64,000 bases of DNA from Haematococcus lacustris (lineage: Eukaryota; Chlorophyta; Chlorophyceae; Chlamydomonadales; Haematococcaceae), in the NCBI GenBank assembly GCA_030144725.1, contig JASKMD010000014.1:2231646-2295645 (forward strand), given 5' to 3'. Shown here in pieces: positions 55,201-64,000 of this stretch. Under the pieces are notes generated by a model. The model made no database searches and was not told where the DNA came from. It worked only from the letters and a program-made list of their open reading frames with translations. Position numbers and translations under genes: made by a program. How positions within the stretch are numbered: position 1 is the first letter of the stretch; every line of letters starts with the position of its first letter.

Positions 55201-57914
55201 CAGCTGGCAGCAGGCATGGAGTGGATCCACAGGCGACCAGGACCAGCCATGAAGAGCGGCAGCCTGACCCTACCAGTAAAGCACAGCCATGACTGCGTCC
55301 CCTGGCCCTGCCCCCTGGCCCTGCCCCCTGGCCCTGCCCCCTGGCCCTGCCCCCTGGCCCTGCCCCCTGGCCCTGCCCCCTGGCCCTGCCCCCTGGCCCT
55401 GCCCCCTGGCCCTGCCCCCTGCCCCCTGGCCCTGCCCCCTGCCCCCTGGCCCTGCCCCCTGGCCCTGCCCCCTGGCCCTGCCCCCTGGCCCTGCCCCCTG
55501 GCCCTGCCCCCTGGCCCTGCAAGCACTGATAAACACGGGGCTGCCCCTGCCCCTGCCCCCTCACCTGTGTAGGCTGGTGCCGCATAGGTCCCGGTACAGG
55601 GTGACCTGATCCTGGTAGGCGGCCACAAACAGCGGCACGTCAGGACCGTTCACCCCGGGCGGCTGTGGCCTCTCCCGCCTGCACTCGGCAGACATTGAGG
55701 GGTCAGGGGGTGGGAGGGCCCTGAGGCCCTGCCCCTACTACTCTGCCCCTGCAGCCTCAACACACCGCGCATCATACACGGCGTCACACACGGCATCCTT
55801 CACGCGCTGCCACACCAGGTGGCTGCTGTTGAGGTCACTGCAACTCCTCAGCCGCACGGCCACCTCAAAGCTGCAGCCTGCAGGGTCATCGCCAGGGGCG
55901 GTGGCTGGGCATGGCCAGGGTGGGGTGGGGTGGGGTGGGGTGGGGTGGGGTGGGGTGGGGTGGGGTGGGGTGGGGTGGGGTGGGGTGGGGTGGGGTGGGG
56001 TGGGGTGGGGTGGGGTGGGGTGGGGTGGGGTGGGGTGGGGTGGGGTGGGGTGGGGTGGGGTGGGGTGGGGTGGGGTGGGGTGGGGTGGGGTGGGGTGGGG
56101 TGGGGTGGGGTGGGGTGGGGTGGGGTGGGGTGGGGTGGGGTGGGGTGGGGTGGGGTGGGGTGGGGTGGGGTGGGGTGGGGTGGGGTGGGGTGGGGTGGGG
56201 TGGGGTGGGGTGGGGTGGGGTGGGGTGGGGTGGTACCCGCCTGGGCGGATGACTTCCTGCCACCTTACGCCACAGTCCCTGACCAGGTCGTACAGCTGTG
56301 AGGCAGCAGCCAGAGCAACATCCACAGTTTGCATGGAGCAGCAGCCATAAGGAAGTGAGAGGGCAGGGGAGGGCAGCTGCCCCTCTCATACCCTTCCCGT
56401 CCTATTCCACTCCCCCCTGCCACCCCCACCCCCACCCCTACCCTCACCCACCAGCTCTGCCCCGTTACGTCCGCCCAGCCCAAACGTGTCCAGGCGTCCC
56501 TCCCCCAGCTTCACCAGCACCCGGATCGCGCAGCGCAGCCACAGAGCAGCACGGTAGCCCCCTGACAGGCTGGCGCTCCTGACCAGCCAAGGGGCAGGGC
56601 AGCAGGGCCTGGGCAGGAGGGCTGGGAGGGGAGTAGCAGGCGGAGGCGCTGTAGGGCTTGCCTAGTTGGGGGGCCAGGCCAGTGCGGGTGAGGCAGGGCG
56701 TCAGTGTGTGAGGGCGAGGGGGAGCGGAGGGAGGGGAGAGGGGGAGAGTAGGGGAGGGAGCGAGTGTTGGCAACCCAGGACTGACCTGAAGCTGACTCCC
56801 GCCTTGCCTGGCACCACCTCTGACAATCCCAAGCTCTCCAGCTCCTCCACCACATACTGCACACAGGCATGCCCACCCACCCCTTGCACTCACTTAGTGC
56901 CTCACATACCTCTCATTGGCAACCTTTCTCACAGCTATACATTACCACTGTGCATACACTGCCAACCTCAGTTGGGCGAGTGTGAGTGTGAGTGTGAGTG
57001 TGACCAACCCAAGCCACCCGATGCTGACCCAGGTGCTGGCTGGAGGCTGGGCACTTGCTGTTGCTGGCCGACCCTGTGGCCCAGTGCCTGGCAGGTGTGG
57101 AGGAGCGCTGGCCTGCGCCAGTTCACCAGCTGCCAGGGGCACGACGGCTGACCTGTGTGGCAGCCCACCTGCTCAAGACCCGGGTGGCAGGTGGCAAAGA
57201 ATTGGAATGGCAGCGCAGCATGTTGCTGCCCGGCTCTCAGGCTGTGTGGGAACAGGGCTGGGTTGTCTCCCTCAAGCTCCGGGCGCGCTGCAGTCGAGGG
57301 TGGTGCTGCAGCCTGACCCGCAGTGGCCCGCTGCTGCCTGGCAGGTGACCTCGTGTCCAGAGGGGGCGGCATGTGCCTGCCAGCAGCAGCCCGACCCTGC
57401 GGCTCCTGCCCCTGCCCCTGCTGCTGCTGCTGCTGCTCCTGCTGTCCTTGCTGCTGTCTGTCATTGAGCTGTTGTCTGTCATTGGGCTGCTGATGTGGTA
57501 GAGGCAGTGCTGCCTCCGCTGCCTCTGGCTCGGCAATGTCAGGGGCCAGCAGGTCCCTGCTGCTTTGCTGCACGGGATCAGGTCTGGGTCGCAACCCCAA
57601 GGGGGCTGCTGAGGCTTGCTGCTTGCCCATAGACTCATCTGCTGATGTGTCAGGCTTGACTGGCAGCCGAATGCCATTGGCTGTGACATACCTGCATTGG
57701 GAAGCAGATGGCAAAACATGACACAAGGCTGAGCATGAAGGCGATGCTCGGCATACTTGCTGTTGCTAGGCCACCCACGTTCCTGGGGTTGGTACGCTAG
57801 TGCGGCGTGGCCTGGGAGGGCCGTCGAAGCGCTCACGGTACGGTATGGGCTCAGGCCGCCTTTGTGCGGCGACGAGGCATAGCCTTTTCGTGGGGGTTTT
57901 TGACATACGTACAT
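52262..57914 (-). CDS. RlmL-like THUMP-domain rRNA (guanine-N2) methyltransferase
   Basis: Thirteen exons, every GT-AG border in phase, 652 aa: 57757-57914, 57169-57691, 56786-56856, 56452-56578, 56237-56295, 55766-55870, 55565-55678, 54346-54443, 54078-54217, 53736-53816, 53376-53474, 52787-52979, 52262-52452. The start is ATG at 57914, with a basic Ser-rich N-terminus that could be an organelle transit peptide, then a Gln-rich linker. [10 protein letters not shown] opens the conserved part and [11 protein letters not shown] follows. The THUMP region spans about residues 228-400 ([12 protein letters not shown]), then [20 protein letters not shown]. The Rossmann methyltransferase has SAM motif [15 protein letters not shown] (about 422-436) and catalytic NPPW (about 533-536). 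The closing domain has [13 protein letters not shown]. This order matches bacterial RlmL N-terminal-half enzymes and their plant relatives, which methylate large-subunit rRNA on guanine N2. Introns 5, 7 and another carry long tandem arrays. Confidence 0.92.
54467..54772 (+). repeat. (GGGGGA)n array in an intron of the RlmL-like gene
   Basis: About 50 hexamer units with one slip near 54700, in the intron between exons 54443 and 55565. On the coding (minus) strand it is a CCCCCT polypyrimidine tract of about 300 bases, close downstream (in transcript order) of the 13-bp minisatellite in the same intron. Confidence 0.95.
55302..55520 (+). repeat. 13-bp minisatellite CTGGCCCTGCCCC, same intron
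   Basis: About 16 units with two shortened copies (near 55417 and 55437). It lies in the intron between exons 55565-55678 and 54346-54443 and is G-rich on the coding strand. Confidence 0.95.
55919..56232 (+). repeat. (GGGGT)n array in an intron of the RlmL-like gene
   Basis: About 62 perfect pentamer units in the intron between exons 56237-56295 and 55766-55870. It starts only five bases from the 5' splice site GTACC on the minus strand. The His-Thr-Pro repeat frame across it is an artefact. Confidence 0.97.
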
Positions 57915-58589
57915 GACAAGGAGGCATATGGTGGCAATCTGCTATATGTGAACTAGGCAGCGCCAGCCGGTTAGCCAGGACAGTTAAGGCTGCCCCCTAT
58001 AGTGCCCGTGTGAGTACTACGGTGGTTTGTGGGCTGCCCTTCGCTCAGCACTCCAGCATAGGTTAAGTTCAGTCCTGAAGAATTGCATGATAGTCGTGCA
58101 TGGTCATTACCTGCTTTATGGACGTGTGACGTGGCAAGAACAGGAGCTTGAAGGCAGTAGGAGCTTGCACGCGTCGGAGGTACTCACTCCGTACAAGCGA
58201 AAGTATGTATATTGCTGTAAGGTCGCGCGTGTAACTGGCGCGACGAAGCGTGTCAATGTTATATGTTCACAACCCAATGCTGTGTGAGCAAGGCGCTGGT
58301 AGTAGCTTGACGCTCTCTCTTCTATCCGCCTTGGATTCGTCGGCCGCCTCGTAGAGTGAGGGTCGCCCGCTTCGCAGCACTGCTGCTGTTGGCGTGCTTC
58401 GCTAGAGTGCGTAAGCATTGATCACCTGTGTGTTGTATCCCATTGCCGGGCGTCACTCAGCATAGTAACAGAATGGAGGCTGTAAAACAGATGGTTGGAC
58501 ATAAACATCGGATGTGCAGATCAATTAGGAGTATGTCTGTCATGGCACCTGGCTGATAGCTCCTCCTCGAGTATGATCCAGCTTCACAG
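57915..58589. other. Upstream region shared by RlmL-like gene and Fanzor-like relic
   Basis: 675 bases containing the presumed promoter and leader of the minus-strand methyltransferase gene. I searched it for the N-terminal half of the Fanzor-like protein and found none. No TATA box is obvious. Confidence 0.4.
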
Positions 58590-59932
58590 GTTGGGGTGGG
58601 CATCGACCCCGGCGTCACCGAAGCAGTCACCGCAGCCTCTGAGGTGTGGGACCAGCAGTCAGGCAAGCTGGTAGCTGACCAGCTGGACCGGTGGAAGCTG
58701 ACCAAGGGCCAGGTGAAGCATGCCAGCGGCCTGAACAACTCCTGCCGTGACACCAAGCGGTGGCTGGCTCCAATCAAGCCCCACCTCCCTGCTGCTGCTC
58801 TAGCATCTGGCAGCAGTAAGCTCAGCCGGCACCTCCCTGGTGGCCAACCTGAAGCCCATCACCGTCACCCTGGCCACCTGGGACGTGATGTGGGAGGTGT
58901 ACCTGGACCCCATATGGGCACGGCCGCGGCTGAGGCTGTATGGAACCCAGGACCGGGCGCTGGAGCAGTTCTTCAAGCAGGTGAGGGTGGGTGGGTGGGT
59001 GGGTAGAAGGGAGGGTAAGGAACTGAGAGGGGGTGGCTTAGGCATGAAATGAAAGAGGAATTGACTGTGCCATGCCTAACGTGGTGCCGCCATGTCAGCC
59101 ACCATTTGTGTGCCTTGTACGCATGGCTGCAGATGGAGGAGGACATGGCGGAGGTGTCCATGGAGCGCCTTGGGCGTGCTGAGCAGCTGGTTGTGTTCTT
59201 TGGCGCAGCTAGCATTGGCACTGGGGGAGGTTGGGGTGCTGATGCGGTGTTGCGGGCCTGCTGCAAGGTGGTGTGCAGGCCCAAGGGCGCAGGCCAGCTG
59301 CGGGGCAGGGTGGTGCTTGTGCATGAGCTCCGCACCACCCGGGTCAGCTCAGCAGTGAATGGCCAGTAGCCCTGTGAGGAGGAGCTGGACCATGAGCAGC
59401 CCACCAGGCGTGCAGGCACCCAACAGGGCAGGTGGGCCTCCGCCCTTTGTGCTCAGCCTGGAGCCAACAGCGTGACAAGCCAGTGCGGGGCCCGATGTAG
59501 TGCCCGGCAGTGGCCCCCCGCAAGCCCCCACATGCTCCATGCAGCAGCCAAGAAGCCACACCGGCAGCGGCCTTAGAGCCTGGGCCCAGCACTCCCCCTC
59601 GAGCCAAGCGCAGCAAGCGCACCGAGGCTGAGCAGGCAGGTGAGCCCACCCAGCCCACCAAGGCTGAGCAGGCAGCTGAGCTGAGCAAAGGCAAGGCTGC
59701 CAAAGCCAAGCCAGCACCACAGCCAGGCAGGTGGTTGGACAGGGACTGCAATGCAACTCTGAACATGCAGCGCATTGGGGAGAGCAGGTGGCGCCCACTG
59801 GAGCTGTGCTGGTGGTCACAGCAGACAGCTCCGCGAGCCAAGGGCAAGGAGTACCCCGGCCTGGGCTACAAGCGGCTGCTAGACAAGCCACCCAAGCCCC
59901 AGCAGCAGCAGCAGCCTGCTGTGGCACTGTAG
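58590..59932 (+). pseudogene. Fanzor/TnpB-like RuvC nuclease, truncated and frameshifted
   Basis: It begins right after a CAG acceptor-like site with VGVGIDPGVTEAVTAAS, a RuvC-I-type motif with its Asp at 58605. A one-base frame change near 58800 leads to TSLVANLKPITVTLATWDV and ARPRLRLYGTQDRALEQFF. A GT-AG intron (58982-59132) separates this from QLVVFFGAASIGTGGGWGAD and VVLVHELRTTRVSS, the place where TnpB-family proteins have an E-x-x-TS motif. A TAG at 59367 and another frame change precede WLDRDCNATLNMQRIG, a RuvC-III-type Asp motif, and the stop at 59930. The usual CxxC zinc-finger pairs after the E-containing motif are absent. The N-terminal RNA-binding half is not upstream. I infer a decayed copy of a Fanzor-type (OrfB/TnpB-descended) element protein, whose relatives use a guide RNA to cut DNA. 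The family call rests on motif order only. Confidence 0.68.
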
Positions 59933-60535
59933 AGTGTGCCCCCCTTCGTTGAGCTGTTATCGACCTACAATCAACGCATGTTTTTCATGTCAACCCTACA
60001 CAATAGCCCTCGTGGTCAGGCAATAGTGCAGGTGGTAGGCACTCATGCACCATGTCCATGTGCATTGGGTATACTCCACACCGCCCATTAACACTATTCT
60101 AGTCGGGTCACTAGTGGTCCCTAGTATTCCCGGTAGTGCCCGATGGTGGCCACTACTGGTCCGGCTCTATTGGCCCTAGTGAGGGACAAGGGTGCTGAAG
60201 CAACCAGGATGACATGACTGTATCAGGAGTCCCGCAACGGCTCCAATTCCATGCTTCGCTCAGCACGGGCTTGTGACAGGGTACGAGAATAAGAGGGTAA
60301 GAAGCGGACCAACTGGGTTATTGTGGTGTCATCAGCCTATTATTTGGCGCAGCCCGTGGATTGAAAGAATACGGTTGAGCAGCTGTGCTGACCACGAGGC
60401 CCCCAGCACGTCAGGCTCATATCGTTGCGCTCATTTTGCGGGATTGCATGTACTTCATGTTTTACACCAGAATGCAAGCCGGCTGGAGTCGGGGCCCAAC
60501 CTAGCAAAGCCATAACCGTATGCGTGTTTGCTCAT
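59933..60535. other. 3' flank of the Fanzor-like relic; CFAP418 upstream region
   Basis: No gene recognised. In TnpB/Fanzor elements the guide RNA derives from the 3' end of the ORF and this flank. Here 60100-60180 has repeated ACTAGTGGTCC/CCACTACTGGTCC phrases that could fold, but no element end was identified. Confidence 0.35.
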
Positions 60536-61198
60536 ATGACAGACCTTGATGACCTGCTCCGCGAGCTTGACGACCTTCCCGCACCATCACAGTCCTCGCA
60601 GAACAGGAGCGTGCACTCCACGCCCCTGCAAACAAACCAGTTGGATACCATAGCCCGCAAGCCCATGCGATGTTCAGTGACCCCCACATCACTTCAAAAA
60701 CAAGGAACACGGCGCAGCTCCATAGACCAATTGCTTGACGACTTAGACATTCATTCGCCCAGCAGCTCGCTACTGGCGACCCAGCGTTCGCCAGCGCCCA
60801 CCACAGCAGCATTGGCGGGCAGCAGCTCGTTGTCCCGCACCAGCAGCAGCCAGGTGCACAAATGTATGGGCGTGCATCTAGGCGGGGCTAACCTGCCTCG
60901 TGGACGCAATGGAGCAGCTGTTGGCAGCATCCAGTGCTGTGATGCATTGAGATGCACCAAATGTGACTTCAGTGTCATCTCCTTTCCTCAACGAGCGTGG
61001 CATGCGGATGTGGACTACCTGTTCCTTCGCAACAATTACCCCACCTCTGCCAAGCTGAGCCCCTTGTTGGTCAGTGAGGCCGGGTCGTGCGCATACTGCT
61101 GTCAGTGCTCCTGGCGAGCAGTGGCAACTGGGGAGGTGGCGCGCATTGACCCATATGCCAGCGAGCTGCGGTGGGTGTGTGCCGGGCATGGGAGTTGA
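60536..61198 (+). CDS. CFAP418: CFAP418 (C8orf37-like) cilia-associated protein
   Basis: Single-exon 220-aa protein starting at ATG 60536 (MTDLDDLLRELDDLP), the acidic N-terminus typical of the family; an upstream in-frame ATG at 60425 gives an implausible Cys-rich extension. The middle is Ser/Thr-rich and includes a second Asp-rich motif (IDQLLDDLDIHSP). The C-terminal domain (about 142-219) carries the family signature: RCTKCDFSVISF, DYLFLRNNYP, YCCQCSWRAV and LRWVCAGHG, with paired cysteines that may bind metal. In animals this protein is needed for photoreceptor outer segments, and the family is found in ciliated eukaryotes. TGTAA at 61721-61725 could be its polyadenylation signal. COG5 follows on the same strand. 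Confidence 0.93.
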   Translation: MTDLDDLLRELDDLPAPSQSSQNRSVHSTPLQTNQLDTIARKPMRCSVTPTSLQKQGTRRSSIDQLLDDLDIHSPSSSLLATQRSPAPTTAALAGSSSLSRTSSSQVHKCMGVHLGGANLPRGRNGAAVGSIQCCDALRCTKCDFSVISFPQRAWHADVDYLFLRNNYPTSAKLSPLLVSEAGSCAYCCQCSWRAVATGEVARIDPYASELRWVCAGHGS

Positions 61199-62263
61199 CT
61201 TTTAGTACCAGGCCAGCACAGTAATAGATCGATTGCATGCATGCTGTTTCCATGGACAAAGTGATAAATTTTCCAAGTTCTTAGGCTCAGCTGGTGCAGT
61301 AATGCTGTCCATGTCTCAATTTGCATATAGCTTCCTCCCTCCCTTGTTAAACACAAAGCAAGGGCTCACCATACGTGCCCTGAGGCTTAAGGTTTCTGCA
61401 GGGACAGCTATCTTTGCTGCAGGAGGGCTGTGGGCAAAAGGGTTCCAGGCTGGACACAGGCCTCATGCACGTGCTTGAGGTGGGCTCATGGTGCTCATGG
61501 TGCAGAGCACAGGGAAGCCAGGCACACCGGTGTCAATGGTGTTTAGTTCCTAGAGTGCTCATGCATCATTTGTGGTGGCAGGACAGTGCATGTGAGCACC
61601 ACGTTGCATCAGCTTGGGAAGAGGTGAGGTTCTAGCACAGATGTGCGTCATTTGCTTAGGGCCATAGGGTGCACACAGCTGCCACGGTGTATGAATGGGC
61701 TGGGGTGAAATTCTTCGCGTTGTAAATCATCCACAGTTGACAAAGCACAGCGGCAGGCTGTATTCCTGAATAGCGATGTGCCCGGGCCGCAGGAGGGCTG
61801 CATGAACATGCCATGGTCCAGGTAGCTGCGTGTAGCATGGAGTGCCTGCTTAATAGGGGAGTTCGCACAAAGTTTGCAAAGGTCTAGGCATTCAAGCATA
61901 GGAAGAAGGCAGCTGGTGCAGCTGTCAATGTAAGTGCAGCCTAGACGTTGTGTCGGCTTCATTGCATGAAGTTGACCCCAACTTTGGTTGACAGAGAGCA
62001 AGGACCTATCGGCCTAAGCTTGCTTAGCCTGCAAGGTAACGAGTTGCAGTACGTGGCATACAAGTTGTACTACGAGAACACCAAGGCAATTCTTGTGTGT
62101 GGTCATACTTTAGTACAAGAAAAGGCCTGCACAAGGAGACAGGAGCAAGGTGGCAGGAGCCCCCGGGCAGCGGCCAGCAAAGCAAAAGCAATTAAACAGA
62201 TGCAAAGAAGCATGGGAGGAAAAGGAACACCATACTTTGCAAACATTTGACATCACTCAGCAA
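61199..62263. other. Intergenic between CFAP418 and COG5
   Basis: 3' region of CFAP418 and upstream region of COG5. Open frames on both strands show no recognisable domain. Part of 62150-62263 is open in the COG5 frame, so the COG5 start could be earlier. Confidence 0.45.
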
Positions 62264-64000
62264 ATGCCATTGCGAAGCAGTAGCGGTGCCGCCATCCTTG
62301 CAAACAGCGAGTTTGCTCCGTTCCTTCAAGATGAGTTTAACGTGTCGCAGTTTACCAGCGTGGTTCTGGCGGGCTCACAAACTACCGCACAGGCGCAGTC
62401 TGAACAATTGCGTGAAGGCGTGCGACAGCTGGAGTTGGAGCTCGCGGGAGAGGTCACCGGCAAGAACAAGGAGTTGTTGCGTTCAATGAAACGGATGCTC
62501 GATGCGGAGGTCGCATTGAAGGACGTCGTGTTGAGCATGGACTCACTGCAGAAATCAGTCAGGCGCATCCGAACAGAAATCGCAGGCCCGTACGAGCACA
62601 TCAAAGCTCGTACCACCCAGCTGCACAACCTACACAGCATCGTGGAGTTGCTGAGACATTTAGTACACCGGATCAAACTGACGGGCAAGCTTCGAGCTCA
62701 AATGACAGCCCCAACCTCTACATTAGATTTGCCCAAGGCTGCCAAGCTCATCACTGACATCAAGGCTGTTGATGCTGGAATGGATTTTACCAACATTGAC
62801 GTTGTTGAGGAGGACACTGCTTTCATTCAAGCAGCAGCTGCCACCGTCCAGGAGCAGGCCAAGGTGTGCAACAGGCAGAGTCCAGCTGCCATTCTCAATA
62901 CTTGCAAAACATTTCACATTGAGTGCAGGGTATCCATTGGAGCATTTGTGCGGCCTACTGACTTGCAGGCCTGCACAGGGTGACCATGCTTCTGAGGACA
63001 GCCCAGCCACTGTCCTCCAAGTTCTCCAGCTGCTGCCGGCTCTGATGCTGCTGGTGGTGCTTCTCGTCCTGGTGCTGGTGCTGTTGGTGATGCTGGTGGT
63101 GGTGCCAGCGCAGGCCGCCTTGGATGAGGGTATGGAGTGCATGTCCCAGGCCAAGGTGGGCAGCGCGCTGCAGGTCTTCTTCAACCTGGACCAGCTCAGC
63201 CAGGTGAGGGGGCAGTAAGCAGCGAGGGAGAGATCAGGGCCCTGGCTGGCAGGAGAGCTCTGCAGGATGAGGGTGAAGGAGGCTGCAAACAATTTCGATG
63301 AGAGCTGGGGGTATAGGACATCAGGATGCTCATGTGAGCATTAAATTGCAGTAAGCCATAGGCCTGGCACACCCCTTTCTTCACACATGTGCCGCCTACA
63401 AGCTAACCCTGACTGCCCTGCCCCTTTCTTCCTGCCTGTGGCTCAGTCTTAGTCCCACTCCCTTGCCCTTGCAGGCTGTGGACTCCCTGCTAGCTCAGCA
63501 CCTGCAGCAACTGGACAAGGCAGCCCGCAGCAGCCTCGACCCCAGACATCTAGGGGGAGGCCCTGGAGCAGCAGTGGCCACAGCTGGGCTGCTGGGAGCT
63601 GCTGCTCGCGGCCCCACTGCTGCTCAGCCAGGAGCAGGCGCTTCATGGCAGGTCAGAACTGGCAGTAGGGGAGCCCCAGCACCAGCAGCAGCAGCGCTGG
63701 AAGGGTATGACAGATGTCCAGCAGCAGCAGCAGCAGGTAGCTAGCGGCAGCAAAGAGGCAGTAAGTGCTGGGGTGTGTCCCTCAAGAGCGCCTTGTGCCC
63801 GGCCCCTGCTGCTGGGAGCAACTGGCAGGGAGTGGGCTGCAGGCTGGGGGTGATGCAGCTCTCATGGCAGCGCTGCTCAGCTGTAGCTGGTGGGCTGAGG
63901 CTGTGCGACCGCCATGTGTGATTCAAGCATTGAGCAGCATCTGTGAAAAAGGAGTGAGGGGGAGGACCTGGGACGGCCACCCTGCTTTCCCTGGCTTGTT
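62264..64000 (+). CDS. COG5: Conserved oligomeric Golgi complex subunit 5, 3' partial
   Basis: Vesicle-tethering subunit of the COG complex, acting in retrograde intra-Golgi traffic. Exon 1, 62264-62863 (200 codons), has FAPFLQDEFNVSQFTS, the coiled N-terminal segment (GVRQLELELAGEVTGKNKEL; MDSLQKSVRRIRTEIAGPYE; ARTTQLHNLHSIVELLRHL) and DAGMDFTNIDVVEEDTAFI. All of these are positional signatures of the COG5 N-terminal domain. Exon 2, 63114-63203, has AKVGSALQVFFNLDQLSQ. Exon 3 starts at 63475 (AVDSLLAQHLQQLDKAARSS). All three join in phase 0 at GT-AG borders. The end of exon 3 is unclear and the gene runs off the window. ATG 62264 is chosen because coding-like sequence starts there; ATG 62150 in the same frame is the alternative. 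Confidence 0.92.
62864..63113 (+). other. COG5 intron 1
   Basis: A 250-base GT-AG intron. Its 3' part (63020-63110) is a CTGGTGGTGCT-type GT/CTG-rich low-complexity stretch that stays open in the reading frame and encodes a Leu/Val run (LLVVLLVLVLVLLVML-like). It could be mistaken for a membrane segment. Confidence 0.7.

Follow-up and report, generated by a model that had tools for sequence, protein, structure and literature searches.

A decayed repeat copy in Haematococcus lacustris and its probable Fanzor1-related family lacking the first zinc knuckle

The analyzed window, a stretch of 64,000 nucleotides from Haematococcus lacustris (GCA_030144725.1, contig JASKMD010000014.1, positions 2,231,646 to 2,295,645 of the forward strand), contains a 5'-truncated and decayed copy of a Fanzor1-type repeat with two ordinary eukaryotic genes downstream of it (Table 1). 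The first of these matches PF14996 (Retinal Maintenance) and is presumably of the CFAP418 type, and the second matches COG5_N. The first-pass annotation had described a methyltransferase gene starting within 700 bases of the fragment; this neighbor was rejected, as the open reading frame starting there is the PF14996 gene and the following one is COG5_N. No sign of an effect of the fragment on either gene was seen. At approximately 55833-56252, a short G-rich unit is repeated in a long array, which reads as GWGGV in one frame and as TPPHP on the other strand, with proline-coding arrays nearby.

The copy comprises the 3' part of the gene and a conserved 3' flank. When aligned to P0132, a relative of 930 amino acids, its similarity started at around 58565, equivalent to residue 540 or thereabouts. 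This 5' limit is the point at which similarity fades, and the 3' limit of 60111 is a minimum; the previously annotated extent of 58590..59932 is contained in the repeat, which begins slightly earlier and extends beyond 59932, reaching 60111 or further. An absent N-terminal half had been reported and was borne out by tblastn: with P0132 residues 1-545 and P0155 residues 1-470 as queries, no match in the window had an E below 0.59. A further copy of the family was not seen within the window. The motifs GIDPGV, FFGAASIGTGG, HELRTTR and DRDCNATLNM are present on the + strand in the order originally described, and the codons for the three acidic residues are in place. Both frame changes claimed for the gene were recovered as frameshifts, one between about 58787 and 58804 and the other at about 59417-59420, while an additional break is probably an intron. 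Two internal in-frame stops were found instead of one. With no open reading frame spanning the region, the window copy is, judged by its sequence, dead and would be unable to make a nuclease.

The GT...AG interval between the two exon parts is most simply read as an intron on account of its GTGAGG and CTGCAG ends, its absence from collinear relatives, and its apparent partial read-through in a few gene models (FFKKVRVGG in P0003 and ...MPNRVPPCQPPCVCLV in P0014). Past the natural stop codon, similarity ran on in the four gene models P0089, P0042, P0144, and P0076 in different reading frames (blastx), and this indicates that DNA and not protein is shared in the flank. Only P0089 reaches 60111; the other three models end at 60011-60039. 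The flank is the place where the guide-RNA scaffold of a Fanzor would be expected. An Rfam search of it returned nothing at E<=1, and the predicted fold of 59890-60150 was not unusual (z -1.58), with 15 of 200 shuffles folding at least as well.

Table 1. Features of the repeat copy and of the genes downstream of it (positions in the window).
Feature	Position	Strand	Evidence and remarks
Fanzor1-type repeat copy, 5'-truncated, decayed	58565..60111	+	tblastn with H. lacustris relatives; blastx for 3' flank
Exon piece with RuvC-I, GIDPG, putative catalytic Asp codon 58605-58607	58565..58803	+	alignment to relatives
Same exon, other frame, HLAAVSSAGTSL...LEQFFKQ	58804..58980	+	48/60 residues identical to P0132 614-673
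Probable intron, GTGAGG...CTGCAG	58981..59132	+	sequence; collinear relatives without it
Exon piece with VVFFGAASIGTGGGW strand, VHELRTTRVSSAV, putative catalytic Glu codon 59325-59327, stop 59367-59369	59133..59417	+	
C-terminal piece past second frameshift: Lys/Pro/Ala-rich linker, then RuvC-III WLDRDCNATLNM with Asp codon 59744-59746	59420..59932	+	stop 59498-59500; natural end TAG 59930-59932
3' flank common to other copies	59933..60111	+	blastx to gene models
PF14996 (Retinal Maintenance) open reading frame	60392-61198	+	Pfam E 8.2e-39
COG5_N gene	62114-62983	+	Pfam E 6.4e-22

A search with the piece 58560-59006 retrieved 38 related proteins with a best E of 1e-31, 37 named H. lacustris and one labelled Nevskia sp., and its motifs are therefore not a product of chance. 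A composite query returned at least 854 protein clusters at E<=1e-3 with at least 7998 candidates scored, and the best 120 of the 854 were all from H. lacustris. The same held for the best 120 of at least 250 clusters that a query from a second subfamily returned at E<=10, with at least 7988 candidates scored. Among the matches listed, 263 of 264 distinct proteins bear the name of this alga. Gene models from two series, HaLaN and QJQ45, are represented, and the family can therefore not be explained as an artefact of a single annotation. The first-pass annotation had named intact multicopy relatives with conserved D, E, and D as support for its reading, and such relatives were indeed found as open, near-full-length gene models of approximately 930 amino acids, with the aligned D, E, and D conserved. 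Subfamilies A and C share 40-46% identity and A and B 62%, while D, recognized from P0252 and P0253, is only about 35% identical to the others. Within the listings, family proteins carry NCBI names of the hypothetical or uncharacterized kind, apart from one UniRef name, 'RRXRR domain-containing'. Many of the models listed are fragmentary, joined in tandem, or fused to Pfam domains unrelated to the family. From P0039 to P0264, many H. lacustris models that contain Fanzor fragments have additional Pfam domains (kinase, WD40, ribosomal, or other), and these fusions are perhaps due to annotation merging across repeats.

The Nevskia sp.-labelled cluster, P0012, has 82 amino acids. No close relatives of the family turned up when one genome per bacterial and archaeal species was scanned, and P0012 may therefore be algal DNA that entered a bacterial assembly. 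A scan of viral sequences with the family likewise gave no relative.

Viral and other Fanzors for comparison were found by pattern search. The strict CxxC-Ealt DNA pattern had no match, and two looser versions gave 29 loci, nine of which were retained by an ORF screen, with L011, L020, and L030 being the useful ones. Of the 12 stretches matched by a DEFRTS pattern, none looked like a Fanzor by eye. L020 and L030 are Fanzor1. L030:2654-4660:+, on the uncultivated viral contig IMGVR_UViG_3300042562_001070, encodes a full-length viral Fanzor1 of 669 amino acids with its zinc cysteines, for which a PDB search gave SpuFz1 at E 1.1e-22 and GtFz1 at E 1.4e-8. An open reading frame near it appeared helicase-like by eye. 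L011 (2-1003:+) is Fanzor2-like, with DPG, a relocated Glu, and a C4 finger, and its closest PDB match is the TnpB-like L79 (9b0l) at E 1.7e-21.

The first-pass annotation had classed the fragment as a Fanzor/TnpB-like relic and proposed a profile match to such proteins as a check. In our sequence comparisons, the link to Fanzor1 is clear only with the four subfamilies pooled, while most comparisons that use a single sequence or a profile of just one or two subfamilies fail. A pooled profile of 13 sequences from subfamilies A-D was compared by hhalign with a Fanzor1 profile of three sequences (viral L030 and stretches of SpuFz1 and GtFz1), which gave a probability of 97%, a score of 86.0, and an E of 4.8e-11 for this single comparison, not a database search. 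The best of 99 column shuffles scored 20.3 and the reversed control 17.3. An earlier H. lacustris profile of 20 sequences had scored 35.5 (E 6.7e-4, one comparison), against 19.8 for the best of 59 shuffles and 12.2 for the reversed control. Subfamily D alone reached E 7.8e-6 in pairwise hhalign with Fanzor1, and the matches of profile A1 to single viral Fanzor1 sequences were weak (E 0.027 and 0.057). Using blastp against a three-sequence database, a stretch of P0132 matched SpuFz1 over 409 columns at E 2.8e-7 with the low-complexity filter off, and the best values for D and C in this database were 6.7e-4 (SpuFz1) and 3.7e-4 (GtFz1), respectively. When local hmmsearch with the pooled profile was scaled to 177,635 sequences, E was 1.1e-4 for the viral protein, 8.9e-4 for SpuFz1, and 9 for GtFz1; single subfamilies were not significant. 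In the PDB, SpuFz1 (8gkh) ranked first of 177,635 sequences with a pooled ten-sequence profile at an E of only 0.057; the match consists of two stretches in the right order, neither of which is significant by itself. The Fanzor1 match also takes in the TDGVS block, which lies N-terminal to RuvC. No Fanzor was found when the single window pieces were searched against Pfam and NCBIfam, or when the PDB was queried using a single sequence or a profile built from A, from the C-terminal segments of A+B+C, or from A+C.

PF07282 (OrfB_Zn_ribbon / Cas12f1-like TNB, gathering cutoff 26.3 bits) was exceeded by two of 11 whole proteins, P0110 with 27.6 bits and P0064 with 26.5 bits, both of them multi-copy gene models. 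P0141 scored 25.3, P0077 14.3, P0132 14.1, and a single B domain 15.1 bits; a scan of P0079, P0014, and P0126 gave no match to it, and most single members stayed at 12-15 bits or had no match. The viral Fanzor1 L020, which has the zinc cysteines, also reached only 15.9 bits. Database annotation assigned PF07282 to seven of the best 120 composite-query matches. Two AlphaFold predictions were of too low a quality for use (pLDDT 34.5 and 41.9), and a Foldseek search found no match at E<=0.001.

With window pieces that are approximately 60-80% identical to relatives, the survival of all three acidic residues, as pointed out in the first-pass annotation, is not striking in itself, and the weight of evidence is on family-wide conservation. 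For the phmmer domains aligned to P0132, D552 was found in 157/163, E737 in 263/266, and D871 in 317/330, with neighboring G554 in 159/164 and R870 in 307/331; these counts rest on gene models, which favor open copies. Conservation of E737 is unsurpassed among 380 columns (rank 1), and the Asp columns rank 39 and 37. In the family, the three residues stand in the contexts GIDPG, VDEHRTS, and RDCNA, respectively, and the Glu of the window copy occupies the E737 column (VHELRTT versus VDEHRTS). The distance from this Glu to the first zinc-Cys column is exactly six residues, the position of this column having to be inferred, its Cys being gone, and S744 is seven residues on from E737. Via L030, D552, E737, and D871 align with D383, E541, and D606 of SpuFz1, which are its catalytic residues (PMC11423790). 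This mapping was counted by hand (chain positions 777, 935, and 1000), and the spacings of 158 and 65 equal those of the published triad. The family carries the RuvC-I DPG, the relocated Glu (Ealt), and the RuvC-III RD of Fanzor1. Yoon et al. regard the combination of DPG with a Glu located six residues ahead of the zinc finger as the fingerprint of Fanzor, and the DPG and Ealt pair occurs in <1% of TnpB-family homologues (PMC10711439). The spacing from DPG to Glu had a median of 185 (132 cases), longer than the 120-160 of the published search pattern, and that from Glu to the last Asp a median of 133 (119 cases), far above the published X(5,50) after the zinc finger, which is due to an insert.

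This insert lies between the third zinc ligand and RuvC-III. In subfamily A it is a Lys/Pro/Ala-rich segment of approximately 60 residues; most of C has a Pro-rich segment there, and B and D have a short one. The zinc-finger cysteines had been reported missing, and they are absent at the first knuckle: in the aligned domains, the C1 column is Ser in 249/261 and the C2 column Val in 251/265. Subfamilies A and C have Ser-Val at these two columns, B combines Ser with either Leu or Met, and D has Ser-Tyr. Among 250 Glu motifs, Ser and Val stood at the first-knuckle places in 223 and Cys at both in none. For the second knuckle, which we placed on VRG..WCPVV, C3 is Cys in 220/245 and C4 Val in 213/254, and by this placement C3 would be the only one of the four cysteines to be kept. 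Neither the C4 motif of Bao and Jurka nor Ealt-CxxC occurred in any of the 264 proteins, although DPG and the Glu motif lay in range in only 124 of them, and the single ExxxxxxCxxC match, in P0057, lies elsewhere than the Glu motif. This family-wide replacement of C1 and C2 supports, at the sequence level, the earlier proposal of a Fanzor lineage that lacks the usual zinc ribbon, and we would file the family as a Fanzor1-derived, zinc-ribbon-less variant. The simplest reading would be a single loss of the zinc ribbon before the subfamilies split, with the nuclease residues staying afterwards. C753 (QPCE) and C798 (WC) of P0132 are nearly invariant in subfamily A; they may be left over from a metal site or may have no significance.

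The C4 zinc finger is called strictly conserved in Fanzor and TnpB by Bao and Jurka (PMC3627910), while Yoon et al. state that 'many' members have a C4 zinc ribbon (PMC10711439), and structures put the zinc finger in the NUC/TNB domain (PMC10432273, PMC11423790). Among the papers listed by literature searches on Fanzor with zinc and on Fanzor1, with most subscription papers outside their scope, no title or abstract opening dealt with a zinc-less Fanzor. Compared with SpuFz1 (8gkh), GtFz1 (9cer), and viral L030, the H. lacustris family has the same order of the TDG block, DPG (DPN in SpuFz1), and W..YL block, followed by the VV.G strand, DE.RTS with the relocated Glu, RD..N..N, and RP.E, in a collinear profile match. 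It differs from these Fanzor1 proteins by the replaced C1, C2, and, by placement, C4, and by the insert before RuvC-III.

Chlamydomonas is, as is Haematococcus, a green alga of the order Chlamydomonadales. Its Fanzor1 families CRe-1, CRe-2, and CRe-3 resemble the present family in being multicopy and often 5'-truncated with 3' ends kept (PMC3627910). They are borne by Helitron2 (PMC3627910), whereas a repeat search around the window copy gave no convincing terminal repeats. A strict C4 finger is given for Fanzor in the same source, which has five entries from C. reinhardtii and two from Volvox, whereas the H. lacustris family is without it.

Taken together, the locus very likely holds a dead, 5'-truncated copy of a many-copy H. 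lacustris repeat, the open copies of which encode Fanzor1-related proteins with DPG, relocated Glu, and RD but without the first zinc knuckle, and would work like other Fanzor1 nucleases. This agrees with the earlier relic reading. In the proposed mechanism, the protein would take up a guide RNA made from the 3' end of the element and cleave matching DNA with its D-E-D RuvC site, thereby helping the element to persist or spread. The TNB domain, with its zinc hold gone, may have been remodelled around the Lys/Pro/Ala-rich or Pro-rich insert. The window copy would take no part in this activity. Tentatively, and with somewhat more doubt than trust on our part, the family may be an active Fanzor1 lineage that lost the zinc ribbon once, before at least four subfamilies diverged (down to 35% identity), gained a Lys/Pro-rich low-complexity insert, and kept its nuclease site under strong selection in hundreds of copies in one alga, which would make it a naturally zinc-free RNA-guided nuclease.

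Alternatively, the protein could descend from Fanzor1 but no longer be a nuclease, traveling as a passenger of a non-autonomous transposon and losing its zinc ribbon through general decay. The Helitron2-borne elements of Chlamydomonas offer a precedent, the window copy is 5'-truncated as their CRe families are (PMC3627910), and the many fragmented, joined, or fused gene models fit as well. However, plain decay would scatter the triad and the zinc columns alike, whereas in the gene models, which favor open copies, the triad is among the best-conserved columns, and C1 is uniformly Ser and C2 mostly Val across subfamilies only 35-62% identical; we regard this explanation as rather unlikely. Convergence of another RuvC/RNase H protein of the TnpB, IscB, or Cas12 type on the Fanzor layout would agree with the weak single-sequence profile matches, but it is very improbable given a fingerprint as rare among TnpB-family homologues as DPG with Ealt (PMC10711439), a match that also spans the TDGVS block before RuvC, and SpuFz1 as the top PDB match of the pooled profile. 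Chance motif resemblance in a non-coding GC-rich stretch, for which the lack of an open reading frame across the window copy might speak, is refuted by relatives at E 1e-31 and by open near-full-length copies.

If the family is a diverse, many-copy Fanzor1 lineage that keeps its cutting residues without the zinc ligands, it would show which parts of the NUC/TNB domain are dispensable and represent a natural experiment on the evolution of RNA-guided nucleases. Search patterns that demand CxxC would miss such a lineage. Full-text literature on Haematococcus together with Fanzor yielded only two versions of a paper on Auxenochlorella (PMC12636532), in which a Fanzor-coding repeat is described as the most abundant repeat of that green-algal genome, a likeness to the family described here.
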